Origin: Siphonodentalium dalli
Lineage: Eukaryota; Mollusca; Scaphopoda; Gadilida; Siphonodentaliidae
Assembly: GCA_032622095.1 (NCBI GenBank)
Contig: CP136061.1
Coordinates: forward strand, 249,559,582-249,623,581
Reading direction: 5' to 3'
Length of the DNA stretch: 64,000 nt
The translations under genes and the position numbers were made by a program. Each line of letters starts with the position of its first letter. Positions within the stretch are counted from its first letter, which is position 1. Below, one piece after another: positions 1-54,290 of this stretch. The notes under the pieces were generated by a model. It had not been told where the DNA came from. It worked only from the letters and a program-made list of their open reading frames with translations, and searched no databases.

Positions 1-272
1 AAAATTTTAGGTGGGAAAAATGGGGGATTTTTTGAAAAGTGATTTTCTAATGAAGGACAATTCTGGAACAGGTCGATTTAGACCCGTTTTGGACTTAGAT
101 TCCCCCAAAAGTCGACTCCGTTTCGTGTATAGCATAACGGGAAATTTATGAATCAGTATTTCAATAAGACGTGATGAAAGTTACGGCCGCGTCTTTGATA
201 CGGAGTATATATATAAAGGATTATTTTTGGAGAACTCTTTGGCTTGACTGAGAGAAAATTGCATTTCTAATC

Positions 273-351
273 AGGGGGGGGGGGGGGGTCACGCAAAAAA
301 ATTCCGACACAAGGCCGGGGGTGGGGGGGGGGAAGGGGGGGGGGGGGGGGT
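273..351 (+). repeat. Poly-G tracts
   Basis: Runs of 10-18 G with few interruptions. Similar runs occur at 1086-1098, 1144-1159, 1780-1799 and 2764-2776. The same tracts at 30273 onward have the same lengths. Such runs can form G-quadruplexes and usually change length quickly. They create proline-rich antisense frames that are not genes. Confidence 0.9.
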
Positions 352-743
352 CGCAGCTCCTGAAAACACGTTTTTTCCGGTGTTTGCTGGTGCTTGCAAA
401 GATAATTGTCGAACAGCAAATTAAATTCACGGAAATATTCTTGTGTTGCAGTGGTTTTGCTACATTGGAGCTATAGTTCCAGCAATCAATTAAGTCAAAA
501 CCAGATGCCCCAACGACAAGTATCAGAGCTATCATCATAAATAGTAAAGGCACATGCGTGTGTGTAGAAGAAAGATAATTATCTTGTGTTCAAAGCAGCT
601 CTGACCATTAACGGTATGCCAATCGGAAGTTATCCATCAATAGACATTGATGTGCTATATTTCAGTATTATGGGGGTATTAACAACTTGGAGAAGAATGC
701 CTACATTTGTGGTCATCGATAAGTTAATTCAGTCACACTTCAG

Positions 744-793
744 TTTGTAAGCAAATGGCATAACGGCACCGACATGTCATATTTGCTTACAAA
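744..793. repeat. Short perfect hairpin
   Basis: TTTGTAAGCAAAT at 744-756 is repeated as its exact reverse complement at 781-793, giving a 13-bp stem and 24-nt loop. The copy B equivalent is 30744-30793. Function unknown. Confidence 0.6.
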
Positions 794-832
794 ACGACGA
801 CGAATCTAGCCATACGGGCGAGTGAATTTTTT

Positions 833-1046
833 TTGCGGGGCTTGAGACTTTTTTTCCGATTAGTTTTGCGTGATATATTCATGGTTGTAACACTGTTTTT
901 TGTAGAATATACCTTGCATATCCACACAAATATAACAACATATATTCAAATTAAACTTAAATATGTATAATTCAGGCAGAAATTTGAAAATACTTTAATT
1001 TGCCACAAGTTCCCCCTGAAATAACATTCAATTTGCCCGAAAATTG
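833..1046 (+). repeat. Dispersed repeat related to 24858-25036
   Basis: The segment shares several blocks in the same order with 24858-25036: GAGACTTTTT, GATATATTCATGGTTGT, AATATACCTTG and CCCCTGAAATAACATTC. Both copies sit beside poly-G tracts, so the G run may be part of the element. No terminal repeats were found and the class is unknown. Copy B equivalents are near 30833 and 49400. Confidence 0.6.
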
Positions 1047-1406
1047 CCCGAATTTGACCAAAAATATCTCAAATTTGACTGGAAAGGGGGGGGGGGGGTC
1101 CCAAAACCATGAGTGGACAAAAACCTCTTTTTTTGCACAAAGAGGGGGGGGGGTGGGGGTCCAAAGTGCTGCATGAGGCGAACAGTGACGAATGAGTATT
1201 TGAGATGGTGAAAGAATTGTTTCGCCTCTCCTCGGAGTTTATCCCGAAAGTAATATATATTAAATATTGGGGTATGCGAGAATATATTATAGGTAGGGCC
1301 AACTTTCCAAATGTTTCTGTAAACAACAACCCATGTGCACGGAAAAGAGCGTTCCGTGTTTGTGTTTTCCGCATATGGCAGATATAAAGAGCGTATATGT
1401 TTTTCA

Positions 1407-3285
1407 CTTTAGGGTGGATACACACATGCATGTAATCTCTGTAAATATCGTGTATTTGGAGTTTTACATGGATCATACACACCGTGTAATATGTGTCCGC
1501 TGACAACCCAATCATTGCGACTGTGTTTGACCACAGTGAGTTAAACTCTGAACCGCTGAAGAGCCGTTGACTGGGACGAAGTCGTCAGGCCGCTTTAAAT
1601 AATTATTCGCGCGATAACTGAAATGGTTGACGTTCTGTTTAAATCATTGTCAGTATTCTATTGATGTTAATACCAGTGATGGCCTCTTCCACAACGCAGG
1701 GGGCTATGACCCCCAACATACACGGGGAGCTATATTAACCCAGAAGCTACCGAATTCACCATTGCATATTTCCTCGCCGGGGGGGGGGGGGGGGGGGGGT
1801 GTGCACGCAGCACACTGAGTCCTGACACCCTGCTTTATAAATATCGAAGTCATGTCTGTCGTGTCTGTTTTCTACGAGTGATTAATCTAATATGCAGCAA
1901 TTTATGCTATTCATATAATTATGAACATATTATACAGCTTTAAATTTGAATGCATGGTGTTGCTGTTCAGGCTATGGTCTTACAATCTCGTCCAAATACG
2001 GATACGATAGGCGAGAATCGCATGCGTTTTGATATGTCGATGCCGTCTGGAGAGTTTGGCGGGACCAGCATTCCGTCTCGATTTGCTCAGTCTACCCTTG
2101 ATGCTATAAAGTGGTAGCCGCGGGCGCTTATATATAGAGTTGTTTTTATGAGCCATCAGGCCCCCGCGGCAGCGGTCGCTGGCGCGACCTGACTGCCTCG
2201 ATATCAATTTGAAAAAGGGGTGACGTTGCTTAGAACGTGTCTCTTTGTGGTGTCATTCTTTTGGTATGATTTTTTACTAAATAACGGGTATGTTAGAGTT
2301 ACATTTCTTTGAATTTTACAATCGAAACATATTCGCATGCGATGCTGAGTCACGCGGGACACGGCAAACTAAATCGCGCGCAAATTGGCTTGCGATTTTT
2401 CAGCATCCCACCCCATTTGGCATGCGATAGCGTTTGTACTAGGTGTGCTGTTTGTCTTCATTCGGCGAAAGGGTTGCCTATAGCTACGAGTTCCCAACTA
2501 CGTCACCTTTCATCTCTTGTGTTATACAGTTATACATGTATACGCAAAATTTACAACTATGGAATATTTATGTAAAACATTATATTGTAATTCTTGCACA
2601 GATAATCCCGGCTGATACATTCAATTAACTCCCTTAGTTATTGGAAGCTTTCGAGAACCAGCCCCTCCCCCAATCATGGATTATGGTAGAAAATGTTATA
2701 ATTCAAGCTTGTGACAGGTAGGAGCTTGTTCAACATTTGGCTTGAGAAACATATATATAAATGGGGGGGGGGGGGGTGTCACTCTTTTTAATTTCAACGC
2801 TGTACCTGCATTATTTGTTGGCGCTAATGAATATTTGCAATCCCAATTGAATTAATGTTATCACATGAGCTCGCTCTCAAAATTATCAGAGAAATATGAA
2901 CAAGCCGGTATCATCCTATAAAAGAATTCTGCATATTTTATTTCTGTTTTGGATGACCCTGTTTCCAAGAAATGACAGACACAAATCAAGTATAAAATCG
3001 ACCGGCTCTAATCCACTTTTCGAAATGAATTATAACTCGTGAAAAACAGCAACATATATCAGACAAGAATTACTCATTTCGGCATCCATGAAAGAAGACA
3101 TGTTTATGACTGGCCTGAAATTTCTTGATGGCAGTTTGTTTGATAATGGCTTATAACTACTCACTGGTGAAATTGATCTCTCGCGCGCAGGTGATTAATT
3201 TTGTCAATTATTGGTGTGGCCATGTAAAATACATGTATTTTACATACAGACATTACATGCATGTGTGTATCCACCCTTAGTGTGC
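1407..3285. mobile_element. Possible DNA transposon with ~65-bp terminal inverted repeats
   Basis: GGGTGGATACACACATGCAT near 1412 recurs as its reverse complement near 3265, and the similarity extends inward for about 65 bp, including a perfect 22-bp palindrome at 3223-3244. This could be one ~1.9-kb non-autonomous element, or two small MITEs inserted in opposite directions. No clear target-site duplication and no transposase frame were seen. The interval contains the candidate exon at 1971-2117. Copy B equivalent 31407-33285. Confidence 0.4.
1971..2117 (+). CDS. Candidate short terminal exon, unknown protein
   Basis: After a possible acceptor (TGCTGTTCAG) an open frame runs 48 codons, with an ATG at 1974, to TAG at 2115-2117. 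The peptide is mixed and protein-like (contains RMRFDMSMPSGEFGG) and the DNA is unusually CpG-rich for this window. I do not recognise a family. The antisense frame is also open here, so coding is unproven; it may be a captured exon fragment inside the putative transposon 1407-3285. An 8-bp GC-rich inverted repeat (GCCGCGGG) lies just downstream. Confidence 0.28.
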   Translation, partial: AMVLQSRPNTDTIGENRMRFDMSMPSGEFGGTSIPSRFAQSTLDAIKW

Positions 3286-3610
3286 AAAATGCTTCTGACT
3301 GCGGCGATAGTTATTTCAAGTTGCTCAATATTTATAAGACACACTTTCAAGCATGACTGAAATATTTCATCTTGAAATGTTGGGAAATGAGAGTGATGAA
3401 ATGTTATATTTAACATGAGTGTTCATTGAACGAGTTCTCATTTCTTATCGAAATGCAGGCCGAAAATAGGGTCATATAGAACTTATTTCAAAAACACAAA
3501 TATATATATATGCACTGAAAAAAATTAAATAAAAAAACCCACCCAAAATAAGCTCACTGTGGGCCTATTTAAGAACCAAATAAATGTCAATATTTAAAAA
3601 ATGCAATAAA
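2118..3610. other. Non-coding, no gene seen
   Basis: AT-rich sequence with poly-G at 2764-2776, a right-hand inverted-repeat arm ending near 3285 and a (TA)n run near 3503. Frames of 61-88 codons at 2309-2628 look like chance. Copy B equivalent 32118-33610. Confidence 0.6.
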
Positions 3611-4160
3611 AGTGGGCGTGTCACATTTTCTAATGCAGCGTGTGTTATAAGTGGGCGTGGCATTTTTTCAGTGCAGCGTGTGTTATAAGTTGGCGTGTGT
3701 TATCAGTTCAGCGTGTGTTATTAGTGGGCGTGGCACATTTTCAGTGCAGCGTGTGTTATAAGTGGGCGTGGCACTTTTTCAGTACATAGTGTGTTATTGT
3801 TATAAGTGGGCGCGTGTTATAAGTGCAGCGTGTGTTATAAGTGCACATGGCACGTTTTCAGTGCAGCGTGTGTTATAAGTGGGCGTGTGTTATAAGTGCA
3901 GCGTGTGTTATAAGTGGGCGTGGCACTTTTCAGTGCAGCGTGTGTTATATGTGGGCGTGGCACATTTTCAATGCAGCGTGTTTTATAAGTGGGCGTGTCA
4001 CTGTTTTAGTGCAGCGTTTGTTATAAGTGGCGTGGCACTTTTTAGTGCAGGGTGTGTTATAAGTGGGCGAGGCACCTTTTCAGTGCACCATGTGTTATAA
4101 GTGGGCGTGGCACCATTTCAGTGCAGTGTGTGTTTTAATTGGGCGTGTGTTATAAGTGCA
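3611..4160 (+). repeat. Satellite array, forward arm (38-bp monomer)
   Basis: About 14 diverged monomers in the orientation GTGGGCGTGGCAC, then TTTTTCAGTGCAGCGTG and TGTTATAA. Short forms alternate GTGCAGCGTGTGTTATAA with GTGGGCGTGTGTTATAA. This arm is more diverged than the reverse arm, as is usual at array edges. At 4160/4161 the orientation flips. Translated frames here are repeat translation, not genes. Confidence 0.95.
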
Positions 4161-5661
4161 CGCCCACTTAAAACACACGCTGCACTGAAAAGTGCCACGC
4201 CCACTTATAACTCACGATGCCCTCAAAAGTGCCACGCCCACCTAAAACACACGCTGCACTGAAAAGTGCCACGCCCACTTATAACACAGGCTGCCCTGAA
4301 AAAGTGCCACGCCCACTTAAAACACACGCTGCACTGAAAAGTGCCACGCCCACTTATAACACACGGTGCATTGAAAAAGTGCCACGCCCACTTTTAACAC
4401 ACGCTGCACTTATAACACACGACTACTTATAACACACGCTGCACTGAAAAAGTGCCACGCACAATTATAACACACGCTGCACTGAAAGTGCCACGCCCAC
4501 TTAAAACACACGCTGCACTGAAAAGTGCCACGCCCACTTATAACACACGCTGCACTGAAAAAGTGCCATGCCCACTTATAACACGCTGCATTGTAAAAGT
4601 TCCACGTCCACTTATAACACACGCTGCACTTATAACACACTCACTTAAAACACACGCTGCTCTGAAAAAGTGCCACGCCCAATTATAACACACGCTGTAC
4701 TAAAAAAGTGCCACGCCCACTTATGACACACGCTGCACTTATAACACACGCCCACTTATAACACACGCTGCACTGAAAAAGTGCCACGCCCACATATAAC
4801 ACACGCTGCACTGAAAAAGTGCCACGCCCACTTATAACGCACGCTGCACTTATAACACACGCCCACTTATAACACACGCTGCATTGAAAAAGTGCAACGC
4901 CCACTTATAACACAGGCTGTCCTGAAAAAGTGCCACGCCCACTTATAACACACGCTGCACTGAAAAGTACCACGCCCACTTATAACACACGCTGCACTTA
5001 TAACACACGACTACTTATAACACACGCTGCACTGAAAAAGTGCCACGCACACTTATAACACACGCTGCACTGAAAAAGTGCCACGCCCAATTATAACACG
5101 CTGCATTATAAAAGTGACACGCCCACTTATAACACACGCTGCACTTATAACACACGCCCAATTATAACACACGCTGCACTGAAAAAGTGCCACGCACACT
5201 TATAACACGCTGCATTATAAAAGTGCCACGCCCACTTATAACGCACGCTGCACTTATAACACACGCCCACTTATAACACACGCTGCATAGAAAAAGTTCC
5301 ACGCCCACTTATAACACAGGCTGCACTGAAAAAGTGCCACGCCCACTTATAACACACGCTGCACTGAAAAGTACCACGCCCACTTATAACACACGCTGCA
5401 CTTATAACACACGACTACTTATAACACACGCTGCACTGAAAAAGTACCACGCACACTTATAACACACGCTGCCCTGAAAAAGTGCCACGCCTAATTATAA
5501 CACACGCTGCACTGAAAAAGTGCCACGCCCAATTATAACACGCTGCATTATAAAAGTGACACGCCCACTTATAACACACGCTGCACTTATAACACACGCC
5601 CACTTATAACACACGCTGCACTGAAAAAGTGCCACGCCCACTTATAACACAGGCTACACTG

Positions 5662-6660
5662 AAAAGTACCACGCCCACTTATAACACACGCTGCACTTAT
5701 AACACACGACTACTTATAACACACGCTGCACTGAAAAAGTGCCACGCACACTTATAACACACGCTGCACTGAAAAAGTGCCACGCCCAATTATAACACGC
5801 TGCATTATAAAAGTGACACGCCCACTTATAACACACGCTGCACTTATAACACACGCCCACTTATAACACACGCTGCACTGAAAAAGTGCCACGCACACTT
5901 ATAACACGCTGCATTGTAAAAGTGCCACGCCCACTTATAACGCACGCTGCACTTATATCACACGCCCACTTATAACACACGCTGCATTGAAAAAGTGCCA
6001 CGCCCACTTATACCACAGGCTGCACTGAAAAAGTGCCACGCCCACTTATAACACACGCTGCACTGAAAAGTACCACGCCCACTTATAACACACGCTGCAC
6101 TTATAACAAACGACTACTTATAACACACGCTGCACTGAAAAAGTGCCACGCACACTTATAACACACGCTGCACTGAAAAAGTGCCACGCCCAATTATAAC
6201 ACGCTGCATTATAAAAGTGACACGCCCACTTATAACACACGCTGCACTTATAACACACGCCCACTTATAACACACGCTGCACTGAAAAAGTGCCACGCAC
6301 ACTTATAACACGCTGCATTATAAAAGTGCCACGCCCACTTATAACGCACGCTGCACTTATAACACACGCCCACTTATAACACACGCTGCATAGAAAAAGT
6401 GCCACGCCCACTTATAACACAGGCTGCACTGAAAAAGTGCCACGCCCGCTTATAACACACGCTGCACTGAAAAGTACCACGCCCACTTATAACACACGCT
6501 GCACTTATAACACACGACTACTTATAACACACGCTGCACTGAAAAAGTGCCACGCACACTTATAACACACGCTGCACTGAAAAAGTGCCAGCAGTTATAA
6601 CACACGCCCACTTATAACACACGCTGCACTGAAAAAGTGCCACGCTGCATTATAAAAGTG
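5662..6660 (+). repeat. ~1-kb block in the satellite, duplicated at 9142-10140
   Basis: Offset 3480. Rare variants match in both, for example GCCAGCAGTTATAACAC at 6588 and 10068 and GCATTGTAAAAGTG at 5911 and 9391, with very few substitutions. Similarity ends near 6665 (CACGCCCAC versus CACGCACAC). It shows a second, larger amplification layer above the 404-bp period. Confidence 0.8.
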
Positions 6661-9141
6661 CCACGCCCACTTATAACGCACGCTGCACTTATAACACACG
6701 CCCACTTATAACACACGCTGCATTGAAAAAGTGCCACGCCCACTTATAACACAGGCTGCACTGAAAAAGTGCCACGCCCACTTATAACACACGCTGCACT
6801 GAAAAAGTGCCACGCCCACTTATAACACACGCTGCATTGAAAAAGTGCCACGCCCACTTATAACACACGCTGCACTGAAAAGTACCACGCCCACTTATAA
6901 CACACGCTGCACTTATAACACACGACTACTTATAACACACGCTGCACTGAAAAAGTGCCACGCACACTTATAACACGCTGCATTATAAAAGTGCCACGCC
7001 CACTTATAACGCACGCTGCACTTATAACACACGCCCACGTATAACACACGCTGCATTGAAAAAGTGCCACGCCCACTTATAACACACGCTGCACTGAAAA
7101 GTACCACGCCCACTTATAACACACGCTGCACTTATAACACACGACTACTTATAACACACGCTGCACTGAAAAAGTGCCACGCACACTTATAACACACGCT
7201 GCACTGAAAAAGTGCCACGCCCAATTATAATACGCTGCATTATAAAAGTGACACGCCCACTTATAACACACGCTGCACTTATAACACACGCTGCACTGAA
7301 AAAGTGCCACGCCCACTTATAACACAGGCTGCACTGAAAAAGTGCCACGCCCACTTATAACACACGCTGCACTGAAAAAGTGCCACGCCCACTTATAACA
7401 CACGATGCACTGAAAAGTACCACGCCCACTTATAACACACGCTGCACTTATAACACACGACTACTTATAACACACGCTGCACTGAAAAAGTGCCACGCAC
7501 ACTTATAACACACGCTGCACTGAAAAAGTGCCACGCCCACTTATAACACACGCTGCACTTATAACACACGACTACTTATAACACACGCTGCACTGAAAAA
7601 GTGCCACGCACACTTATAACACGCTGCATTATAAAAGTGCCACGCCCACTTATAACGCACGCTGCACTTACAACACACGCCCACTTATAACACACGCTGC
7701 ACTTATAACACACGCCCACTTATAACACACGCTGCACTGAAAAAGTGCCACGCACACTTATAACACGCTGCATTATAAAAGTGCCACGCCCATTTATAAC
7801 GCACGCTGCACTTATATCACACGCCCACTTATAACACACGCTGCATTGAAAAAGTGCCACGCCCACTTATAACACAGGCTGCACTGAAAAAGTGCCACGC
7901 CCACTTATAACACACGCTGCACTTATAACACACGACTACTTATAACACACGCTGCACTGAAAAAGTGCCACGCACACTTATAACACGCTGCATTATAAAA
8001 GTGCCACGCCCACTTATAACGCACGCTGCACTTACAACACACGCCCACTTATAACACACGCTGCACTGAAAAAGTGCCACGCACACTTATAACACGCTGC
8101 ATTGTAAAAGTGCCACGCCCACTTATAACGCACGCTGCACTTATAACACACGCCCACTTATAACACACGCTGCATAGAAAAAGTGCCACGCCCACTTATA
8201 ACACAGGCTGCACTGAAAAAGTGCCACGCCTACTTATAACACACGCTGCACTGAAAAGTACCACGCCCACTTATAACACACGCTGCACTTATAACACACG
8301 ACTACTTATAACACACGCTGCACTGAAAACGTGCCACGCACACTTATAACACACGCTGCACTGAAAAAGTGCCACGCCCAATTATAACACGCTGCATTAT
8401 AAAAGTGACACGCCCACTTATAACACACGCTGCACTTATAACACACGCCCACTTATAACACACGCTGCACTGAAAAGGTGCCACGCACACTTATAACACG
8501 CTGCATTATAAAAGTGCCACGCCCACTTATAACGCACGCTGCACTTATAACACACGCCCACTTATAACACACGCTGCATTGAAAAAGTGCCACGCCCACT
8601 TATAACACAGGCTGCACTGAAAAAGTGCCACGCCCACTTATAACACACGCTGCACTGAAAAGTACCACGCCCACTTATAACACACGCTGCACTTATAACA
8701 CACGACTACTTATAACACACGCTGCACTGAAAAAGTGCCACGCACACTTATAACACACGCTGCACTGAAAAAGTGCCACGCCCAATTATAACACACGCTG
8801 CACTGAAAAAGTGCCACGCCCAATTATAATACGCTGCATTATAAAAGTGACACGCCCACTTATAACACACGCTGCACTTATAACACACGCCCACTTATAA
8901 CACACGCTGCATTGAAAAAGTGCCACGCCCACTTATAACACAGGCTGCACTGAAAAAGTGCCACGCCCACTTATAACACACGCTGCACTGAAAAAGTGCC
9001 ACGCCCACTTATAACACACGCTGCACTGAAAAAGTGCCACGCCCAATTATAACACGCTGCATTATAAAAGTGACACGCCCACTTATAACACACGCTGCAC
9101 TGAAAAAGTGCCACGCCCACTTATAACACACGCTGCACTGA

Positions 9142-10140
9142 AAAAGTACCACGCCCACTTATAACACACGCTGCACTTATAACACACGACTACTTATAAC
9201 ACACGCTGCACTGAAAAAGTGCCACGCACACTTATAACACACGCTGCACTAAAAAAGTGCCACGCCCAATTATAACACGCTGCATTATAAAAGTGACACG
9301 CCCACTTATAACACACGCTGCACTTATAACACACGCCCACTTATAACACACGCTGCACTGAAAAAGTGCCACGCACACTTATAACACGCTGCATTGTAAA
9401 AGTGCCACGCCCACTTATAACGCACGCTGCACTTATAACACACGCCCACTTATAACACACGCTGCATAGAAAACGTGCCACGCCCACTTATAACACAGGC
9501 TGCACTGAAAAAGTGCCACGCCCATTTATAACACACGCTGCACTGAAAAGTACCACGCCCACTTATAACACACGCTCCACTTATAACACACGACTACTTA
9601 TAACACACGCTGCACTGAAAAAGTGCCACGCACACTTATAACACACGCTGCACTGAAAAAGTGCCACGCCCAATTATAACACGCTGCATTATAAAAGTGT
9701 CACGCCCACTTATAACACACGCTGCACTTATAACACACGCCCACTTATAACACACGCTGCACTGAAAAAGTGCCACGCACACTTATAACACGCTGCATTA
9801 TAAAAGTGCCACGCCCACTTATAACGCACGCTGCACTTATAACACACGCCCACTTATAACACACGCTGCATAGAAAAAGTGCCACGCCCACTTATAACAC
9901 AGGCTGCACTGAAAAAGTGCCACGCCCGCTTATAACACACGCTGCACTGAAAAGTACCACGCCCACTTATAACACACGCTGCACTTATAACACACGACTA
10001 CTTATAACACACGCTGCACTGAAAAAGTGCCACGCACACTTATAACACACGCTGCACTGAAAAAGTGCCAGCAGTTATAACACACGCCCACTTATAACAC
10101 ACGCTGCACTTAAAAAGTGCCACGCTGCATTATAAAAGTG
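9142..10140 (+). repeat. Partner of the 3480-bp-offset satellite block
   Basis: See 5662-6660. The block lies in the part of the array missing from copy B, so the array-length difference removes one full copy of it. Confidence 0.8.
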
Positions 10141-12354
10141 CCACGCACACTTATAACACGCTGCATTGTAAAAGTGCCACGCCCACTTATAACGCACGCT
10201 GCACTTATAACACACGCCCACTTATAACACACGCTGCATAGAAAAAGTGCCACGCCCACTTATAACACAGGCTGCACTGAAAAAGTGCCACGCCCACTTA
10301 TAACACACGCTGCACTGAAAAGTACCACGCCCACTTATAACACACGCTGCACTTATAACACACGACTATTTATAACACACGCTGCACTGAAAAAGTGCCA
10401 TGCACACTTATAACACACGCTGCACTGAAAAAGTGCCACGCCCAATTATAACACGCTGCATTATAAAAGTGACACGCCCACTTATAACACACGCTGCACT
10501 TATAACACACGCCCACTTATAACACACGCTGCACTGAAAAAGTGCCACGCACACTTATAACACGCTGCATTATAAAAGTGCCACGCCCACTTATAACGCA
10601 CGCTGCACTTATAACACACGCCCACTTATAACACACGCTGCATAGAAAAAGTGCCACGCCCACTTATAACACAGGCTGCACTGAAAAAGTGCCACGCCCA
10701 CTTATAACACACGCTGCACTGAAAAGTACCACGCCCACTTATAACACAGGCTGCACTGAAAAAGTGCCACGCCCAATTATAACACACGCTGCACTGAAAA
10801 AGTGCCACGCCCAATTATAATACGCTGCATTTTAAAAGTGACACGCCCACTTATAACACACGCTGCACTTATAACACACGCTGCACTGAAAAAGTGCCAC
10901 GCCCACTTATAAAACAGGCTGCACTGAAAAAGTGCCACGCCCACTTATAACACACGCTGCACTGAAAAAGTGCCACGCCCACTTATAACACACGCTGCAC
11001 TGAAAAGTACCACGCCCACTTATAACACACGCTGCACTTATAACACACGACTACTTATAACACACGCTGCACTGAAAAAGTGCCACGCACACTTATAACA
11101 CACGCTGCACTGAAAAAGTGCCACGCCCAATTATAACACGCTGCATTATAAAAGTGACACGCCCACTTATAACACACGCTGCACTTATAACACACGCCCA
11201 CTTATAACACACGCTGCACTGAAAAAGTGCCACGCACACTTATAACACGCTGCATTATAAAAGTGCCACGCCCATTTATAACGCACGCTGCACTTATATC
11301 ACACGCCCACTTATAACACACGCTGCATTGAAAAAGTGCCACGCCCACTTATAACACAGGCTGCACTGAAAAAGTGCCACGCCCACTTATAAAACACGCT
11401 GCACTTATAACACACGACTACTTATAACACACGCTGCACTGAAAAAGTGCCACGCACACTTATAACACGCTGCATTATAAAAGTGCCACGCCCACTTATA
11501 ACGCACGCTGCACTTACAACACACGCCCACTTATAACACACGCTGCATTGAAAAAGTGCCACGCCCACTTATAGCACACGCTGCACTGAAAAGTACCACG
11601 CCCACTTATAACACACGCTGCACTTATAACACACGACTACTTATAACACACGCTGCACTGAAAAAGTGCCACGCACACTTATAACACACGCTGCACTGAA
11701 AAAGTGCCACGCCCATTTATAACACGCTGCATTATAAAAGTGACACGCCCACTTATAACACACGCTGCACTGAAAAAGTGCCACGCCCACTTATAACACA
11801 CGCTGCACTGAAAAAGTACCACGCCCACTTATAACACACGCTGCACTTATAACACACGACTACTTATAACACACGCTGCACTGAAAAAGTGCCACGCCCA
11901 ATTATAACACGCTGCATTATAAAGTGACACGCCCACTTATAACACACGCTGCACTTATAACACACGCCCACTTATAACACACGCTGCACTGAAAACGTGC
12001 CACGCACACTTATAACACACGCTGCACTTATAACACACGCTGCACTGAAAAAGTGACACACCCACTTATAACACACGCTGCACTTATAACACACGCCCAC
12101 TTATAACACACGCTGCACTGAAAAAGTGCCACGCCCACTTATAACACACTCTGAACTTATAACACACGCTGCACTCATAAATAACACACGCCCACTTATA
12201 ACACACGCTGCACTGAAAAAGTGACACACCCACTTATAACACACGCTCACTTATAACACACGCTGCACTTATAAATAACACACGCCCACTTATAACACAC
12301 GCTGCACTGAAAAAGTGCCACGCCCACTTATAACACACGCTGCACTGAAAAAGG

Positions 12355-13115
12355 TAGGGTAGGGGGTTTAAAATAGGGTAGGCACGGAAACACAAACCAC
12401 AAGTATTATTTGCTTTGGCCTAACAAAAGTTTTGACATGGGAAATCTCTTTATTGGAGAGTAATAAATAATGATAAGTATAACAAAGTCAATCTATTTTT
12501 TTCATGTATTTGTTGATGATGGCTGTGTTACATACTTTTTATGTTATTTTGCACGAACCCACTTCAAAGGTCTTGAGCAACTTTAAAGATCTATGCTCCG
12601 ATTTGACACTAAATTACTAAACAATTCCTAAGCCTATTTTCAGCTTACCAGGTGACGATAATGGAAAATATTGGCAATCACCATCATCCGTATGACACAG
12701 GTATCGCGGAAATCCACCAAATAACCCATAAGTAATACATCGAAAATGATCACAAAAGCTCATATTGAGAACGCTCTTTATTATCTACCACTTTTTTAGT
12801 TATGGAAGCATCAGCGCTCTTTATAAAAGATGATCATTGGAACTTTTGCCAGGCTGACAATCATTCAAAACTAGTTAAAAACTTCCGCTTTTTGAGTCGA
12901 TATCTAGATAATAAAACCTCATATTAATGGACTCGTGGGTCCGATCTAATATCTAGATAATAAAACCTCTTATCTACAATTTCATGTGGAATTCCCTGAT
13001 AAAATTGGCGATAAAAACATCTGTATCATGATTGCATTTGCGGTACAAGGCGCGCATGACCTCATTGGCTGGTTCAAAATAATGAAAGTCTACCGAATGG
13101 TACATAAACGTTTGA
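12355..13115. other. Flank of the satellite, no confident gene
   Basis: Begins with a G-rich GGTAGGGTAGGGGG. Contains a 50-bp-spaced direct repeat of ATCTAGATAATAAAACCTC (about 12901 and 12951). Copy B equivalent is 36900-37675, which carries many 1-bp indels. Confidence 0.6.
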
Positions 13116-13252
13116 TATATACAATGTGTTTGTAACGATTCATGTATCGCGACTCGGTAGTTTTCGTGGCCACAAAGCGACTTGGAGCTATATGGCCACT
13201 AAAACTAGCTTCATCACGATACATGAATCGATACAAACACATTGTGTATATA
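13116..13252. mobile_element. 137-bp palindromic MITE
   Basis: TATATACAATGTGTTTGTA at the left is matched by the reverse complement of CAAACACATTGTGTATATA at the right, and pairing continues inward (GATTCATGTATCG with CGATACATGAATC; GTGGCCA with TGGCCAC). Target duplication unclear. Copy B: 37676-37812. Confidence 0.7.
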
Positions 13253-13580
13253 ACGTCAGGGCATGCATCTTATTATTTTCTTTCCTATTATAATTTCATT
13301 ACATTGGGTATATGATTAAGAAAACACATTATTTTCGTTCAATAAAAATGTAATTTTATTTTGGTATAAAAGTTAAAACGCACAAACATTCACACATAAA
13401 GAGTAGAGGATCGATATGATTAACATTAGCTGGACAGACTGGTGACTGGAACCACCACCACCCTGCAAACAGTGAAATGCATTCAGAAGCACAATAATAG
13501 TCCACATGAGTACCACGAGAATCTTTGGCAAAAAGTTAATTTATCCCTATGATGACTACATGGAGAGTAATCAATTAATT
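13253..13580. other. AT-rich spacer, no gene seen
   Basis: Holds the 28-bp stretch 13401-13428, of which 27 bp are missing in copy B at 37961. No frame or RNA gene was recognised. Confidence 0.6.
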
Positions 13581-15205: not shown

Positions 15206-15290
15206 AACTTGAACATAATGGGGGGGGGGGTGTGTGAAAGTGAAGTCAAGGAGGTGGAGTTATAAAATATAAAGGCCAACTGCGTTTAAC

Positions 15291-18931: not shown

Positions 18932-19035
18932 TATCATAGAATCTCGCATCCTCTGAGGTGGTACATACATGTACACCCCTGATTAAGAGGTCCTGATAAT
19001 TTGCTATGAATGCAGAAAAGAGATCGTCACTATCC

Positions 19036-42729: not shown

Positions 42730-42924
42730 CTGAAGCAGATAACTGCCGTTATGTACGTCATCGTTCTTGGCAACAACATCATTTCGAAACAGTTCCGACT
42801 TGTATTCCACTTGTGGTATACAACAATATGTATTCAATGGCTGGGATTCCGTTGAATACATGTGCCTCACGTCAATGGGTGTGGAAGAAAACATGGTCTG
42901 AAACCCTGACAGGTCTGAATACAT
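42730..42924 (-). CDS. Candidate 65-codon exon, copy B
   Basis: Same as 18197-18391, offset 24533, with identical translation. Not independent if the duplication is an artefact. Confidence 0.25.
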
Positions 42925-45510
42925 CGTCGACACAAACAATTACACTTAAATGGATGCAATAAATGAAGAATATATATGCTGTGGGTTTGTATCGAGGATC
43001 CTACTATCTAATGACTGGGAACTGACAAAAATGATGTTATGAAAGAGGGTAACCAGGAGAAAATGTAACAAGAGCGTCGCTAGGGCGTGGCAATGTATTC
43101 ATGCGATAATAACGCTTTATAATTTCTAAATTATGCCGGGAAAATATAATAATTTCTAATAAAATCTAAATGAATCGCGAAACGTTCAAATTTAAAACTG
43201 AAATGTAGCAGTCATGACAATTTGGTTGTTTCGCTTGAAACTTATTAATGAAAGTTTGAACTTTAGCAGTAGCATTGAGATCGGTAGTGTAAAGGCACCA
43301 GCTTACGAATATCGGCATATACTTTATTGTAACAAACTGCTAATTGCTTAATCAAGTTATAGACTTCACCAACTAAATATTGAAATGTTATATTTTAGTG
43401 CATTTTGGGGTGTATCGTTATAATTCTGCTGTGGTTAAGGAGCCGATTATTTAGGGCATTACTGTATCATAGAATCTCGCATCCTCTGAGGTGGTACATA
43501 CATGTACACCCCTGATTAAGAGGTCCTGATAATTTGCTATGAATGCAGAAAAGAGATCGTCACTATCCCATAGGGAGCCTCGCATATATAAGAGAATAAA
43601 TCGGCCTAATAATATTATCTTGACCTTGCAATCCAGTGTATTTTCTTAAATATACGAGGCTCCCTATGGGAGACTCACATACATGTATATAAGTAAATGC
43701 ACTGACAAAGGTTATTTAATGCTGCACCAGCGAAGCTCCTGTCATTAAAGGGTTAACTGGTATTTATGATTCAGGGTGGGGGGACACCCTTTATATACTA
43801 TCTTGGTAGAACGATGAGATGAATGGTAAATCAAAGTAATACTGTGTGACTCCCTGGGGCCAGGTTGGTTATCTTTTTTCTGTGATCAGGGCCGTGAACC
43901 ACAACATAATTTGCTCAAATCACTCCTGGCCAGATAAACATCCGTTTTATTATCTATTTTTTCCGTTGATACCACAAGCTTTTAGAGTAATGAGCTTTCC
44001 CAAAAGCTCATGTCGGATACTGCAGGAAACGGATATAGAACATATTTAAGGAGATTTTAGTGTTCAAATTTCACAACCTTGAAAAAATGGTGAACAAAGT
44101 CACTGGAACACTTGTATCTTGTCAATTCATATTTATATGGGGACGAGATTTATAGTGAGCTAGCAAGAACTAACACACAGCTCATAAGCTATCTGTTTTG
44201 GGTTGAGTTATTTATATAGGTGAAAAAAAGGATGACTTCCCACTTCGATGTGAGACATATTGCCACGATTTTCGAGCAAATTATGACGTTGGATGCAGGT
44301 CCTGGTGATGGTACCTGTACCGGTAAATCAACTAAAAACTGATATGTATGTGTGTATAAATAATGAACAAATATATGATGACGATTAGGGTGATTGCATG
44401 ACAGTTTAACATTGTGATGATTAGGGTGAACAATAGCAAAATGAAAGGCAATGATGCAACAAGAAATCTCATGGTTTAACAATCTACTATTAATAAAGTT
44501 AAATTGATTCTCAATTTGACATGAGACACCTCTTCAAATTAACGGTACACCCAATGAACCTCGTTATAGTACATACCATCATAATAAGGTAACATTTACT
44601 CTAGATCAGCATTCAATCAGCGAATTTAAACAGACATGACTCGTTCCAACCCCATAATTATGTATACATAATGGCAACAAGCCATATTTCCAACTGAATC
44701 CTGAAAAATTACCCACAATTCTGCTGTGGTTAAGGAGTCGATTATTTAGGGCATTATTGTAGTCGATCTAAAAATAGAAACTACCTTCTATTCAATCTTC
44801 TCAAAAACTTTACTGAACAGCAAACAATTACCAGTATACCATGGAAAGTATGGGAGACCACAATTTTTTTGCCCCGAAAAAAACGGAAAATTTACTTTGT
44901 ATGGCCTATTAAATTAGTCATGAGGTGAGGGCAGAATCAGAAATCACACATCATGAGATTTCTACACATAATTAGCCAATCAATGTAGGGTGTTGGTCAA
45001 CCAATTAATCTAACCAATCAAAATTGTCCAGTTGATGAATGACATCATGATTTGGAGGTGATGATGGCGACTCATCTCGGGTGCCATGGCGACTCATCTC
45101 GGGTGCCATGCTCCTGCAGCATCTGCATCGCACAAGAAGCGCTAGTTGTCCGACAAACGAATGTAGATGCTGGCTCATCACAAATTGATCTGGCACCTTG
45201 GCACCATATTGCAAAGAAAGGTCTTTGCAGAGTTTTCAGCCATATGTCATCACTGACACGTCACTTCTTGGGTCGCTGATTCTTTCCCATCCCTCTATAA
45301 ATATCCTAGAATTTGGCGAAAATAAATATATTTGAGACATATCTTTATAAAAAAAAATCAGAAAAATCATAAGAGCGAGCTTTCACCCATTCTTTACTAT
45401 ATACTCATTGACGAATAGTAGTAACCCGAGGAAATGGTAAGAAATAATCAGTTAAAAAACTGTTAAACTTGTTATCTGAACATTTCCCTCCAACAAATAA
45501 GCACTTTACT

Positions 45511-45930
45511 CAAGCCTGAATTTAGTGTGTCTGCCTTTTGCAGAATGAGGTCCAGAGAGAGTGAATTTAGTGACGCCATCCCACAAAGCGGGCTAGCATC
45601 ACCAAATTCACCCTCTCGGGACCTCATTCTGCTTGGTCCTCATCTTATGGGAAGTATCTATGGTTAAAATGAACATTGAATTTAGTTACTTTTTCCCCTT
45701 CTATATCCCATAAATTTGCATAATCAAGGTGACTAATGGGTGAACATCACCAATTTCAACTGGGGAACTTCAATCTGATCCTAGGTCTCCCATAGCAGTT
45801 GAGGCCTAAGCAGAATGAGGTCCCCAGAAGTTGAATTTGGTGATGCTAGCCCACTGTGTGGGATAGCGTCACTAAATTTACCCTCTGGGGACCTCTTTTT
45901 CCAAATGTCAGACATACTAAATTGGGCTTG
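45511..45930. mobile_element. Family C foldback element, copy B
   Basis: Same as 20978-21397, offset 24533. Confidence 0.85.
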
Positions 45931-47214
45931 CTTTTACTCGTCAATGAGTATTTAGTATAGAAAGTGATAATCATTCACATGACATGTGTGGCTAACATAC
46001 CACATGTGTTGTATCGACAAAAATTACCTTCATCATCATTCTTCATATGGCAAGTTATATGAAAGTGTCAATGACACTATAGCTCAACTTGGATGGGGGA
46101 TAATTTCATGTTTTACAATCAATAGAGGTTATCAGGAATGCGGAAAGTTTAAATATCTAAGCAATACTAGATGTCAACATGAAGATATATATATATATAT
46201 ATATAAAGTAAAATCCAAGATGGCTGCTGGTGGTTATGTTTTCAAATTCTTAAAAATATGATGACTCACATCTAGAGGTCACCCAAAGATCCATTTGAAG
46301 TTTGGTGATGATCGGATGATGGTCTGTAGGGTGTGCCAAAGGATTTAGTCATGCAAAGAGTAAAATCAAAGATGGCTGCAGGTGGCTATGTTTTTAATAG
46401 AAAAATTTCCAAATAGCTCCCATTTAGATGTGATCCTAAACATGCCTGTAAATTATCAACACAATTCTCCTATAAATGAGGGCTGTAGGGTGTGTCGATG
46501 GATTCAAATTTTAAATCCAAGATGGCTGCTGGCGGCCATGTTTTTCAACAAATTTCCATCAAAAAAGGAGGCTCCCATCTAGAGGTCACCTCAAAGATCC
46601 ATATTGAGTTTGGTGACGATCGGATGAGAGCTGTAACCTGTAGGATGTGCTCACGGAAATTGTTGACGCACGCACGGACGCCAACCCATGGCAATAGCTC
46701 AAACATGACTTTGTCAAGTTCAGCTAATAATGGAAAGTCAAGAAGTTATTCATTATACTAGAAATATGTTTAGAATTTTAACCAATATTTTCAAATGTTT
46801 AAAAACAATGCCCCTGAGATTAATTTTAAACCAGTAAACACTGATAAATTAGTTTTGATCACTGAATATGACATCCATGGTGGATTCAAATACTGCGCCG
46901 CATGCAATGTCAGCAACACACACCATCTGAATGTGAACATTCAAGTTATAAAACTCCCTGTTCAACATAGCACATGCAATCCTTCATACCTGGCTAAACA
47001 CAAAATATATGCAGATTCTTATCAAATAGAAGGCTGATACATTCATGTCCCCAACTCCAAGCTGTTCTACCAGTGGTTATAACATTAAAACAGTGGGTGG
47101 ATAAAAAATATCCAATGTGAAGTGAAGTTGATTAATGCTAGTCGAGAATGAAATATGTCGTCTTTCAAAAGAAATTTGACTATGTGTAAATTAACCCATG
47201 TTAGACCCCTTTAA

Positions 47215-47598
47215 CCCTTTACCCAACAAACCGGCCACAACCGGCCAAATAAAGCTTCAACAGCCTAAAATATCTTCGGTCTGTCTCAATAAAACCATAC
47301 ACATATGGATATCATTGGAACCGGCTCATTGACCACATTGTGATAGTTACAGTTATACCCTGTGCCAATGCATTCTCTTATATATGCGAGTCGACCATAG
47401 GTCGCCTCGCATATATAAGAGAATGCATTGGCCTAAAAAAAATCGTTTTTTAACACTTTTTACCATTTTTTCTTACATTCTTTAACAATTTTAAATGTGT
47501 TAAGCCAATGCATTCTCTTATATATGCGAGGCGACCTATGGTCGACTCGCATATATAAGAGAATGCATTGGCACAGGGCCCTCCTGTTGGGTAAAGGG
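47215..47598 (+). mobile_element. TTAA-I MITE, copy B
   Basis: Same as 22682-23065, offset 24533; TTAA at 47211-47214. Confidence 0.9.
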
Positions 47599-47719
47599 TT
47601 AAATTCATGTAAGTTTTCAATATGAGCGGAGCATTATGTTTCATGAGAGTTTTAGATTTTGATATGGTATGCAAGTCTGGATATAGTGTGTCTGTTATTT
47701 GCTAAAATTTGTTATTTAA

Positions 47720-48112
47720 CCCTTTACCCAACAGAAGGGCCCTGTGCCAATGCATTCTCTTATATATGCGAGTCGACCATAGGGAGCCTCGCATATATAA
47801 GAGAATGCATTGGCTTAACACATTAAAAATTATAAAATTGTTAAAGAATGTAAGAAAAAATGGCAAAAAGTGTTAAAAAAAGGATTTTTTTTAGGCCAAT
47901 GCATTCTCTTATATATGCGAGGCGACCTATGGTCGACTCGCATATATAAGAGAATGCATTGGCACAGGGCATAACTGTAACTATCACAATGTGGTCAAGG
48001 AGCCGGTTCCAATGATATCCATATTTGTATGGTTCTATTGAGACAGACCGAAGATATTTTAGGCTGTTGAAGCTTTATTTGGCCGGTTTTGGCCGTTTTG
48101 TTGGGTAAAGGG
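47720..48112 (-). mobile_element. TTAA-I MITE, inverted, copy B
   Basis: Same as 23187-23579, offset 24533. Confidence 0.9.
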
Positions 48113-48201
48113 TTAAGGTGCTTTGAGTTCACATTATTACTTTATACATTGAGCGATGTGGAATCTATTTAATGCTATGATTTTAGAGTCTCTATAATAG
48201 A

Positions 48202-48857
48202 CAAGCCTACAAATAGTGTGTCTGACATTTGCAGAATGAGGTCCCCCAAGGGTGAATTTAGTGACCCTATTCCGCACAGTGTGCTAGCATCACCAAAATC
48301 ACCCTCTGGGGATCTCATTCTGCTTAGGCCTCATATTCTTGGAAGTATATTTATTATCAAACTAACATTGACTATGGTTACTTTTTCCCTTCTGTTCCCA
48401 TAATTTTCAGAAGATAAAATGCATAATCGAGGTGACTAACTTCAACTGGGAAACTTCAATCTGATCCTAAGTCTCATATAGCAGTTGAGGCCTGAGCAGA
48501 ATGAGGTACCCAGAGGGTGAATTTAGTGATGTTATCTCGCACAGCAGGCTAGCATCCCAAATTCACCCTCTGGGGATCTCATCTTCTGGGAAGTATATTT
48601 ATTATCCAAGGAACAATTTGATTTTAGTTACTTTTTCCCTTCTGTTCCCATAATTTGCAGAAGATAAAATGCATAATCGAGGTGACTGACTTCAACTGGG
48701 GAACTTCAATCTGATCCTAGGTCGCACATAGCAGTTGAGGCCTAAGCAGAATGAGGTCCCAATACAGTGAATTTAGTTATGTTAGCCCGCTGTGCAGGAT
48801 CGCGTCACTAAATTCACCCTCTGGGGACCTCATTCAGACACACTATTTGAAGACTTG
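48202..48857. mobile_element. Family C long form, copy B
   Basis: Same as 23669-24324, offset 24533. Confidence 0.85.
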
Positions 48858-48873
48858 ATTTTTATATGATATA

Positions 48874-49086
48874 CAGTAATGCTCTAATTAATCGACCTCT
48901 TAACCAAAGCAGAATTATGGGTAACTTTTCAGGATTTAGTCGGAAATATGGCTTGTTGCCATTCATCGGAAAGCTCTCCCCGAGAGCTTTCCGATGAATG
49001 GCAACAAGCCATATTTCCGACTAAATCCTGAAAAGTTACCCATAATTCTGCTTTGGTTAAGAGGTCGATTAATTAGAGCATTACTG
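48874..49086. mobile_element. Pogo-like palindromic MITE, copy B
   Basis: Same as 24341-24553, offset 24533. Confidence 0.85.
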
Positions 49087-51572
49087 TAGCCTCATCAAAA
49101 CTTCAGTGCTGGTTTTCGTTGGCCAACAATTTGTGAGAGATTTCATCAGCCTTGCTGTAACTCACAGCAAACCATTCCCAAAATGCATCAGCCCTCCAGT
49201 AACTCACAGCAAACCATTCCCAAGCGATAAACAATATGAATACATATAACAACAAATGAGTAATTCAACCCCTCAGCTCTGTGCTAACTCATCTAAACCT
49301 CATTATAAGAGTTGGACTTTACTAACTGACACCCAGAGCATTACGGGCACCAGACGTTTTAAGGGGTGTGGGGGGGGGCTGAGACTTTTTAAGGGGTGGG
49401 GGGGGGGGGGGGGCTGAGACTTTTTGACCATTGTTTTACATGATATATTCATGGTTGTGACACAGTTGTTGTATAATATACCTTGTATATCAGTGTATAG
49501 ACACATAATTATAACAAAATAGATTCAAATTAACCTTTAAAATTTTCCCCTGAAATAACATTCAATTTGCCAAACAAATAGTAACTTAGTGGCGTTAATT
49601 TGTATTATGTATCTTTAATTGAAAACTGAAAACTATTGAAACAATTTAAAAACAATTTCACTCTGAAATTTTGACCAAAGTTGCTTGTGCTGAGACACAC
49701 CCCCTTGTTACTACGTCCCTGAGTCGGTGAGACACACCCCCTTGTTACTACGTCCCTGAGTCGGTGAGACACACCCCCTTGTTACTACGTCCCTGAGTCA
49801 GTGAGACACACCCCCTTGTTACTACGTCCCTGAGTCTATGTTGCACAGAGCTATGAAGATTGACATGAATTATATTAATGTTATAAACACATTGAGTTAT
49901 ATTCACACACACATTCAGCCCAATAGCATAAGCAGTAAACTTGTAGTTAATTAGTAGAAGCAAAGGATGTTGGAATGTTAAAACTGTGGAAGAAAGTAGG
50001 CGATTTGATTCGAGGTGTTATCCTACGAGAGATGATACAAAATACAAGATCAAAAGCGATTTGAATCGAGGTGTTATCCTACGAGAGATGATACGAAATG
50101 CAAGATCAAAATGTTTAGTGTGAGAAATTATTAACCGATCATTTGGGTTAAAACCTTCGTGAAGAAACTTAAAACAAAAACTGCCTCCATATTCCGTGTA
50201 AAGAAATGTAAAATACAATCATAAAACCTTCAAAGCGACTAAAATCATACCTGGCCACAAAAAAACATTCCGTTCATTACCGTTGCAAATTCACAAATTC
50301 ACAACCAAATTGTTGTTGTTTTTCCATTTCCTGTTCAACAATATGTAATATATAATTCCGCCCCTTAAAATATAACGAGACACACATAACAATCAACACA
50401 ACTTTCAGTGCAAAAATATAAAAAAAAAAATCCATCCAAGTGTAATTGTGGAAAAAACCCTTAGAAATAGCCAAACAGTTAGCTATTCAAAAGTGTAGGG
50501 AGAGCACCATTATATTGTATATAATGCCTTTTTTCATTGAGGTACATGTATGTCCATATCTGCTCTAAACTGGGTGAAAAGTTAACCCTCGCTTTCCTAA
50601 ATACTCAATGATGAGTAGTTCCCTTGGGAAATACATATGATCTCTAATGAGTTGCAAAATTTAATAACCGGTTTAGTGAGGCTAGAATCAAATTTAGTGG
50701 TCGAGGTTAATAAATTTAGTGGTCGAGGTTAATAAATTTAGTGGTCGAGGTTAATAAATTATGTTTAGAAATGCGATGAATTTGAGATCCATTTGATCAC
50801 ATAAAAAAAAAAAATCTTGAAATGGCTAAGGTTTACAAAAATTAATATTGATTTTCTTATCACAACCAAAGAGGAAGTAAAGACAAAATATAGTTCCTTT
50901 ATAAATGTGTCTGTTAATGTTGTTTAACCACCCTTGTCACCCATGTTTATCTATCAATCAACACTAAATAACCCCAAATTGAATAACATAATTATATTCT
51001 AATTAACATAATAAAAAAGTTCCGGCATTGACATTTGACATCAACACGCTAAGATCTTAAGTCACTGTGTGTGTCGATAATACACGTGTGTCTAACTAAA
51101 AAATATTAGGCCCGATTTTTGGGGCTACTTATGTGATAAAATAAGTTTCATATTTCCTAAATATCCCTCTTGATGAATAATAGACCATTCCAACTTATAC
51201 TTTTATAACTGGGTGGGAGAGTCCAATTAGTAAAGAAAGGGTTAATCTGCAGTGAGGAGAAATATGAGGGAGGAGTTATAAATATGAGGGAGGAGTTATA
51301 AATGGTGTGATTAGCGAGAGGGTCAGGGAGAGCGGTCGTCAGAATATCAATCATATCAAACACAAGTTAGACAAACGTTCAACTATCTCAATAAATAGCT
51401 TGTATATACAATCTCTGTTATATACAATATCAACAAGGGTGCGTAATAAAAATATTACAAAACAGGTTATATATATACAATTAATGAGCAAAAACACCAG
51501 GACCAGCTGGTTAAGATATAACCCGTATATGCACTGGCAATCACATCTTCAGGCTATTCTATGCGTTTTTAA

Positions 51573-51769
51573 CCCTTTCAGTGCCAAGTCCGATTTTTGT
51601 ATCAACCCATATTTCCTTGATAATTTTTCAAATTTATTGATTATAATAATGTGATGGAAAGCTCTAAGAGCTCTTTCCATCAATGTATCACATTATTATA
51701 ATCAATAAATTTGAAAAATGATCAAGGAAATATGGGTTGATAAAAAAATCGGACTTGGCACTGAAAGGG
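51573..51769. mobile_element. TTAA-II MITE, copy B
   Basis: TTAA at 51569-51572 and 51770-51773. Differs from copy A by a T/G change (ATTATCAAGG to ATGATCAAGG). It is followed by a poly-G of 21 where copy A has 7. Confidence 0.9.
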
Positions 51770-51958
51770 TTAATGAATGGGGGGGGGGGGGGGGGGGGGA
51801 CAAAATATCATTTTCAAAATCAATAGATTTGTTTCAAAAGAAGTATCTGAAACATTGAAATATATTTAAACATTCATCTGTTTTTCATACAATTTTAAAA
51901 TCAACAAAACTGCGCCTGTCTTCATTTCTATATATAGCAACATTGGGTACTATATTAA

Positions 51959-52341
51959 CCCTTCCATGACTGGAGCTTCCTGAAATTTTGCGAAAAGTCT
52001 GTGCCAATGCAATGAATGCATCCTCTTATATATGCCAGTCTCCCCTAGGGAGCCTCACATATATAAGAGAATACATTGGCCTAACAATATTTACCATGAC
52101 CGTGTAAGCCAGTGCATTCTCTTATTTATGTGAGACCCCCTATAGAAGACTCACATATATAAGAGAATGCACTGACACATGATATTTAATGCTGCACCAG
52201 TGCATCTCTAGTCATGGAAATTGTAAGCCACTGCATTCTCTTATACATGCGAGGCTCCATATGGGAGACTCACATATATAAGAGAATGCACCGGTACATG
52301 ATATTTAATGCTGCACCAGCACAGCCCCCGTCATGAAAGGG
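51959..52341. mobile_element. TTAA-III MITE, copy B (383 bp)
   Basis: As 27398-27771 but with a 9-bp insertion (CCAATGCAATGAATGCATCC) and an A/C change. TTAA at 51955-51958 and 52342-52345. Confidence 0.85.
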
Positions 52342-52787
52342 TTAAAGAGAATTGATTTTGAATACCCAAAACTATCTGGTCATCTGTTGGGGAACACTTT
52401 ATATACTGTGTGACATTCTACGCTGTACCTGATTTTAAGTCTTGCCAGTGAAAATACAGGATAAGTTTGAGAATATCGATCATAAAAGGGCCCATTCACA
52501 CAACATGATTATTTCTCACGTATAAACATACAAGGACTTTCCTGTAACAGAAAAACACTTGCTGTGTGAAGGGGCACTTTGTGAGGAGTGATATGATCTA
52601 TGGTTGTCAATACAAACTTAATGTTTTGCCTCAAAGGTCTCTTTTTTAAAATAAAATTAATTTGTTGTTAAGAATCCATTTAGTATAGAAACAGTTAACA
52701 AATTTATTTTATTTTCGAGCTCTACCGACTGCGAACATTTTCTTTATCTTTAAAGGGACAGTTATAATTATCTCATTGATATTTTAA

Positions 52788-53073
52788 CCCTTCCATGACT
52801 GGAGCCTCCTGACATTTTGCGAAAACCCGGTGGCAATGCATTCTCTTATATATATTGTAGGCCAAGGTATTCTCTTATATATGCAAGGCCCCCTATGGGA
52901 GCCTCGCATTTATATAAGAGGATGCATTGGCCTTACAATATTTACGTTGACCGTGTAAGCCAGTGTATTCTCTTATATATTCGAGGCTCCCTGTGGGAGA
53001 CTCGCATATATGAGAGAATGCACTAGCACAGGATATTTAATGCTGCACCAGCATAGCTCTCATCATGAAAGTC
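52788..53073. mobile_element. TTAA-III MITE, copy B (286 bp)
   Basis: As 28218-28505 with a C/T change and a 2-bp shorter TA run. Confidence 0.8.
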
Positions 53074-53242
53074 TTAATAATGAAATAGTATTGTTTTGGT
53101 ATTTACGAGTCTCATATATGGATCACATTTTTTATGTTGTTGTTGTAAATAGAGGTCTGGGAGCATAAATACATCATTAGTTCGTTGATAACCAAGTTAA
53201 CATATCTCCACATGAAATACTGAGAAGTATGGCAAACGTTAA

Positions 53243-53634
53243 CCCTTTACCCAACAAACCGGCCAAAACCGGCCAAATAAAGCTTCAACAGCCTAAAATA
53301 TCTTCGGTCTGTCTCAATAAAACCATACAAATATGGATATCATTGGAACCGGCTCCTTGACCACATTGTGATAGTTACAGTTATGCCCTGTGCCAATGCA
53401 TTCTCTTATATATGCGAGTCGACCATAGGTCGCCTCGCATATATAAGAGAATGCATTGGCCTAAAAAAAATCTGTTTTTAACACTTTTTACCATTTTTTC
53501 TTACATTCTTTAACAATTTTATAATTTTTAATGTGTTAAGCCAATGCATTCTCTTATATATGCGAGGCGACCTATGGTCGACTCGCATATATAAGAGAAT
53601 GCATTGGCACAGGGCCCTTCTGTTGGGTAAAGGG
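53243..53634 (+). mobile_element. TTAA-I MITE present only in copy B (392 bp)
   Basis: TTAA at 53239-53242 and 53635-53638. Copy A has a single TTAA at 28671-28674 with the same flanks, so this is a clean insertion with a 4-bp TTAA duplication. Ends CCCTTTACCCAACA and TGTTGGGTAAAGGG; two hairpins inside. It is the best evidence that the family moved by a TTAA-specific transposase. Confidence 0.96.
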
Positions 53635-54290
53635 TTAATGGAAAAAAAAACTATTTGTGGCGCCAGCGCCAAGATATCCTAATAATATGCTGAGAAGGAT
53701 CAGGTCAAAGAGCAAAATAGAAACTTGCAAAGTTCAGATGGTGAAAATTTAGATTATTTACTAAATTCAATATTCAATAGTTTTTTCGAGAATTACTTTA
53801 TATATTGTATTTATGGGATATGGGCTGAGAGGGTGACTGTTACCACACAAAAGTGTCCTGTTTATTTAGTTTTAAATAATGTAACATATTTTGGTCTGCA
53901 AACATAACCACTTGTATGTATGCATCAGGAAAAAGTGATTGTCGATAATTTACGAAACAAAGAAGTTTGTAAACTGTATTGGGTAAGTATAATTCACTTG
54001 ACCAATCAGCTTATCGTGGTTTAAATGCAGATGTTTCATAAGCTTTATGGGATAAAAAGACTTCTGTCACTTGGTAGAAAAATTTAGGTCAATAAAAGTG
54101 CCGAATCTTTGTAAATTATAAATTTATTAGCCTCATGTCAGCAGATCATATCATAACAGTCATAAATTAGTATAGTAAAGGTTCAAGCGTTATGTGTTGC
54201 TTAAAATATTTATACCTGTTAATAAGAAAGGTGGGAAAGACACTGGGTCATAGCAAAAGTACCCTCTCCACACCAAAAGTAAGGCCGTTG

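Follow-up and report, generated by a model that had tools for sequence, protein, structure and literature searches.

Based on the analysis of the window, as we call the whole stretch of 64,000 nucleotides under study (C1:249559582-249623581), we propose, with slightly better than even confidence, that a real duplication of the form U-R-L-S-R-D, with at least two R units, has acquired an extra lap in the assembly, its middle unit R3 having been made by the assembler. That at least two tandem units of this stretch of ~17,000 bases without recognisable genes are real can be held with high confidence; for the third unit, an assembly error is more likely than very recent natural copying. The original prediction had seen in the repeat either two haplotypes in series or a misassembly. 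The second suspicion is likely to hold for one unit, but the first does not fit the pair in the window.

The assembled order is U-R2-L2-S-R3-L3-S-R4-D. It runs without N gaps, and the 94 kb around the array (C1:249539582 to 249633581), window included, contain no N bases. The first unit, R2 (C1:249541936-249558916), lies in the fetched flank directly upstream of the window; it is preceded by flank U, which showed no satellite array, and is followed by segment L2. The latter starts 665 bp before the window, which opens with its remainder (1-3609, forward strand, identical to 30001-33609). Then come the long form of a 38-bp satellite (S2, 3610-12353, given no strand, with an orientation flip at 4147/4154), the hybrid unit R3 (12354-29335, forward), a second L segment (L3, 29336-33609, forward) identical to L2, the short form of the satellite (S3, 33610-36898, again without a strand, flipping at 34147/34154), the last unit R4 (36899-54289, forward) and the right flank D (54290-64000, forward). 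The first ~930 bp of L3 belong to a dispersed repeat family.

The genome assembly searched comprises 2.23 Gb in nine contigs, and all counts from these searches are lower bounds (40 candidates were scored per query). A query from R (16000-18000) was matched almost in full at least four times, each time on C1 (249.35-249.61 Mb), besides short matches elsewhere in the genome. The start of L had at least three matches of 100% in the same C1 region and longer matches of ~79-87% elsewhere. For D, the segment 54290-56100 was matched over its whole length only once, while two parts of it, the first ~255 bp and ~130 bp near 55700, are repeated elsewhere. The right end of the array coincides with the start of this ~255-bp dispersed repeat (54290-54545), which has at least 39 relatives at 81-85% among the matches listed. 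Eight of the 16 window ORFs of at least 100 aa were scanned against Pfam, and no family was found at E 0.01; six of the other eight are duplicates from the other copy, and the remaining two (1028-1408 and 31028-31408) are one ORF in two copies. Rfam gave no match at the gathering score over the window and ARAGORN found no tRNA in it, for which reason ribosomal DNA was dropped as a reading.

Self-comparison of the window confirmed the identity blocks that had been predicted: 1-5413 equals 30001-35413 exactly, and 13429-24875 equals 37962-49408 exactly (the latter had been put at about 13429-24870). Bounded by the nearest differences on each side, the two laps have 0 substitutions and 0 indels in 11,435 + 10,538 bp (21,973 bp in total). 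None of the 18 homopolymer runs of eight or more bases in these blocks differs, G21, G16 and G15 among them; when the G-run that separates the blocks is counted in, 1 of 19 does. This run, at 24864/24865, has lengths of 13, 11 and 16 in R2, R3 and R4, respectively. Between the exact blocks lie a 5,467-bp difference in satellite length, single- and double-base indels, two substitutions and a 27-bp deletion. The last part of the copies, which end at 29335 and 54289, had been described as differing at 25 or more sites and by a MITE, and here R3 and R4 are indeed separated by 40 variant events (24,871 to 29,335), including a 396-bp insertion; a MITE-like element lies in this part of R4.

This element (53239-53638, forward) ends in terminal inverted repeats and is flanked by TTAA on either side, and its site is empty in R1, R2 and R3. 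The position of the R4 copy between two TTAA is what we take to be a piggyBac-type insertion pattern. Elements of the same kind, ~400 bp long and 95-99% alike, also occur at 22678-23071, 23181-23583, 57836-58235 and 59067-59467; two of the five have counterparts in R4 as well.

The offset of exactly 30,000 bp had been regarded as suspiciously round. It is exact over 1-5413, but over R the offset between R2 and R3 ranges from 29,993 to 30,008 and equals 30,000 at only 28% of the aligned positions, and that between R3 and R4 is 24,533-24,964. A coordinate-based artefact was rejected, because the type switch in R3 joins homologous positions and the offset wanders; the round value of the left part looks like a coincidence.

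In the alignment of R2, R3 and R4, the middle unit proved to be a mosaic. It agrees with R4 at all 40 variant events in 13403-22200 and with R2 at all 40 in 24871-29335, with 0 events among the three in 22201-24863. In 12354-13402, R3 agrees with R4 at 18 events and with R2 at 22, and these 22 are R4-specific, mostly single-base indels, and lie in the region of a patch described below. R3 is thus of R4 type up to 22142 and of R2 type from 25424, and the switch falls in, or just beyond, the longest marker-free tract (22143-24863, forward; 2,722 bp, the next longest being 647), where R2, R3 and R4 are identical. A switch at this place would be favoured both by crossing over and by an assembler. 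The bases at 21896 and 25424 illustrate the pattern: R1 has G and A, R2 has G and G, R4 has T and A, and only R3 among the four assembled copies combines T with G.

A comparison of all four copies (substitution columns only, gapped columns dropped) included R1, a copy situated farther upstream. In the left part, 27 sites (12 + 15) set R1 and R2 apart from R3 and R4, and 21 sites are private to R2. In 22201-24863, R1 alone departs from the other three at 32 sites; in 24864-28600, nine sites group R2 and R3 against R1 and R4; and in 28601-29335, R4 is distinct from R1, R2 and R3 at 20 of 725 columns. Given the private and cross-grouped sites, a simple allele picture fits only some of the sites. 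Two unit types can nevertheless be recognised, X on the U...L side and Y on the S...D side, which differ by 1.7% at the left edge (for R2/R3 and excluding the patch), by 2.8% at the right edge (R2/R4) and by 0-0.4% between. The fixed differences that each unit has of its own (27 left, 20 right) and the distinct outer flanks U and D are features of a real tandem duplication. It had been argued beforehand that a true old duplication would diverge evenly; this does not hold for tandem units, which exchange sequence.

A single exchange between homologous positions of Y and X turns X-L-S-Y into X-L-S-(Y left, X right)-L-S-Y, and the single switch in R3, with its left part like the last unit and its right part like the first, is the pattern of unequal crossing over. 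However, a hybrid R3 is expected alike from one unequal exchange and from one extra lap of an assembly loop. Nor would single reads crossing 28-32 kb, proposed earlier as a test, discriminate, since R2-L2 yields the same reads. As sequence alone cannot part the chromosome from the assembler on this point, we weighed secondary signs.

R1 may serve as a measure of allelic divergence. The arrangement U'-R1-L1 lies ~196 kb upstream (C1:249319096-249365745, sampled) and is cut inside L by a 100-N gap at 249365746. In five of six zones, 0.26-1.49% of the columns are different between R1 and R2 (28/8,723 and 32/2,147 among them); in the sixth, 0/725 are. In an outbred organism, alleles ordinarily diverge to this degree. 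A collinear alignment of 12,053 bp that spans the boundary of U and R is 99.0% identical. Collinearity at 97-99%, with structural differences, was also found in the stretches sampled as far as ~27 kb upstream of R1. Part of the U flank consists of a dispersed repeat, many relatives of which occur elsewhere at 94-98%, so it is the collinearity, and not the identity, that carries the argument for an allele. With allele-level divergence, a gap between the copies and a shared, partly repetitive flank, U'-R1-L1 is probably a second haplotype of the left edge of the array that was retained in the scaffold, and it supports the existence of two ancestral unit types. It is unlikely that U'-R1-L1 is instead another copy on the same chromosome, a reading compatible with the others considered here: both copies do lie on one scaffold, the upstream stretches sampled are collinear but show structural differences, and likeness within a dispersed repeat proves little, but the R1 copy ends at a gap inside L, shares the 27 left states with R2 against R3 and R4, and keeps its collinearity across the boundary of U and R. 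If R1 were a paralogue, the allele yardstick would be weaker, and the argument on X and Y would be unaffected. Beyond the gap (C1:249365846-249396190) lies another tandem array, with a 48-bp step inside higher-order units of ~3.2 kb, many of which are more than 99% alike; it contains a second 100-N gap at 249388483.

Measured against this probable allele, the idea that a single locus is represented twice in a row, with its two haplotypes as R3 and R4 (or as R2 and R3), has become very improbable. Such an arrangement is probably present in this same scaffold, as U'-R1-L1 and its gap show; within the window, however, the copies have no gap between them, do not differ at all in the very blocks where R1 and R2 do, and R3 and R4 have in common the 27 left states absent from R1 and R2.

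Among the secondary signs, one is found in the satellite. S3 equals S2 with 5414-10880 (5,467 bp) removed, and 39 bp are common on the left side of the deletion junction. At this junction begins the patch mentioned above (35414-37961, forward), which in comparison with 10881-13429 has 28 one-base and two two-base insertions, five one-base deletions and two substitutions, and which ends on the right in a 27-bp deletion. Its opening 269 bp are error-free, and the first error is at 35683. Among the 28 inserted bases, 24 repeat a neighbour. Two substitutions to 33 one-base indels, as against 98 to 11 between R1 and R2 (Fisher p = 1e-20), make this a spectrum unlike that of the probable alleles. 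A spectrum of errors dominated by insertions is typical of single-pass PacBio reads. Both edges of the patch are deletions (5,467 and 27 bp), with no N gap there, and this suggests a forced join.

An explanation has accordingly to account for four observations: R3 is a mosaic, long blocks of the copies are exactly identical, a deletion marks the junction in the satellite, and the patch resembles raw reads. In the reading that we prefer, type X would be joined to U and L and type Y to S and D, leaving R3 with a Y left part and an X right part. X and Y are the same over ~2.7 kb and only 0.3-0.4% apart on either side of it, and noisy reads may have let the layout switch there from Y to X; having switched, it would have gone round the loop again and produced R3 as an extra lap. 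The contig would thereby have ended in the satellite, and an unpolished stretch with thin support, presumably out of register by 5,467 bp, would have linked this end to R4. The assembler is favoured by the 0 differences in 21,973 bp, while three other near-identical arrays are non-zero, and by the unpolished, insertion-rich patch that starts at the satellite deletion. Several points weigh on the other side: the surroundings of the array are free of N; the satellite should recur in full in a further lap, yet the second one is 5,467 bp shorter, so that a separate join error is needed; the G-run at 24865 has three lengths, as if the copies had been called apart; and the patch begins without errors.

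Comparisons with other arrays bear on the first of these arguments. Neighbouring units in three other arrays are 0.04-0.11% apart. The neighbours on C6 have four substitutions, four indels and 3/10 differing homopolymer runs in 10,001 bp, the pair on C2 has five substitutions, three indels and 1/4 differing runs in 6,850 bp, and the neighbours at C1:226.45 have ten mismatches and two gaps in 8,748 aligned bp; between R1 and R2 in L (2,715 bp), there are seven substitutions, five indels and 7/8 differing runs. The contrast in runs between the two array controls and the window (4/14 against 0/18) is modest, and could also stem from youth or from shared polishing of truly identical copies. Given such near-identical neighbours, a very young real unit is not far-fetched. 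All three units may be real, Y having recombined with X in a very recent unequal crossing over between sister or homologous chromatids, after which the satellite lost 5,467 bp by exchange among its own repeats, only the short patch being technical; we consider this possible, at a probability clearly below even. The switch is exactly the product that such an exchange predicts, the 39 bp common at the satellite junction accord with it, and the core of X and Y has been homogenised, their edges having diverged. Such a distribution is the usual sign of exchange between tandem units. Nevertheless, the event would have to be so young that only one G-run has changed in 22 kb, the patch of raw quality sits at the very join that creates the extra unit, and other array neighbours are far less alike (~91% in the C8 pair; in another C6 unit, 93.8% across 5.3 kb).

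The sequences that accompany R recur outside this locus. A query from the end of L (33277-33609) had at least 16 matches at ≥90% over at least its first 137 bases, and 13 of these 16 lie in clusters with a spacing of 17.5-38 kb on C1, C2, C6 and C8. In the stretches sampled from the clusters on these four contigs, the 38-bp satellite stands beside L in two opposite arms; it was not found in the single stretches sampled on C7 and on C9, where the first L segment is clustered. The units measure 24.5-30 kb in the window, 8.7 kb at C1:226.45, 22.1 kb at C2:1.33, 20-38 kb at C6:218.4 and 17.5 kb at C8:158.7. A 29-base pattern of the satellite has 3,614 exact matches in the genome (its backwards control has 0), and the 100 matches listed are all in two further C1 clusters, in blocks ~9-15 kb apart; two neighbouring units in one of these clusters are 99.8-99.9% alike. 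The satellite, two-armed in the L-linked loci, is thus a repeatedly used spacer in several tandem arrays of large units on C1, C2, C6 and C8. It is conceivable, although we consider it decidedly doubtful, that it actively promotes the amplification and homogenisation of such arrays, and that the window holds a freshly made hybrid unit. Inspected by eye, C6 and the dispersed copies continue with related sequence on the upstream side of 29336, which suggests that L is truncated where it meets R.

False duplications of a heterotype and a homotype class have been defined in work in which read depth is the main evidence for them (PMC8081667; PMC9516828). If R3 is an extra lap, it would count as a homotype false duplication in the usage of the Vertebrate Genomes Project. 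The pair in the window shows neither of the two heterotype features tested, having 0 difference where R1 and R2 differ by 0.3-1.5% in most zones, and no gap, and it shows the homotype features only in part. The description of the heterotype class suits U'-R1-L1 against U-R2-L2 (mostly 0.3-1.5% per zone, a 100-N gap, the same scaffold) and does not suit the window pair, which has neither haplotype-level differences nor a gap. With the homotype class, the window shares a sequence repeated without haplotype-specific variants (0 in 11,435 + 10,538 bp, although one G-run between differs). The unpolished patch with its two edge deletions may mark a contig boundary at which the copies would be of unequal consensus quality. 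Yet the contig-boundary cases described in this work leave a gap and are often as long as one corrected read, whereas the window has no gap and its repeat of 24.5-30 kb follows a repeat unit that is very probably real.

Overall, this locus warns against counting three units. It also shows that genuine tandem units, a second haplotype and a superfluous lap of the assembler, however similar they look, can partly be distinguished from sequence alone, if a probable allele is used to calibrate divergence, if the markers specific to each unit are read in order and if the join is inspected for the error spectrum of raw reads. A hybrid middle unit, a homogenised core and diverged edges are produced by unequal crossing over and concerted evolution in tandem arrays. 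The window shares all of these features, but it differs from such arrays in that its extra unit is almost devoid of private differences and that unit's second junction has the quality of raw reads.
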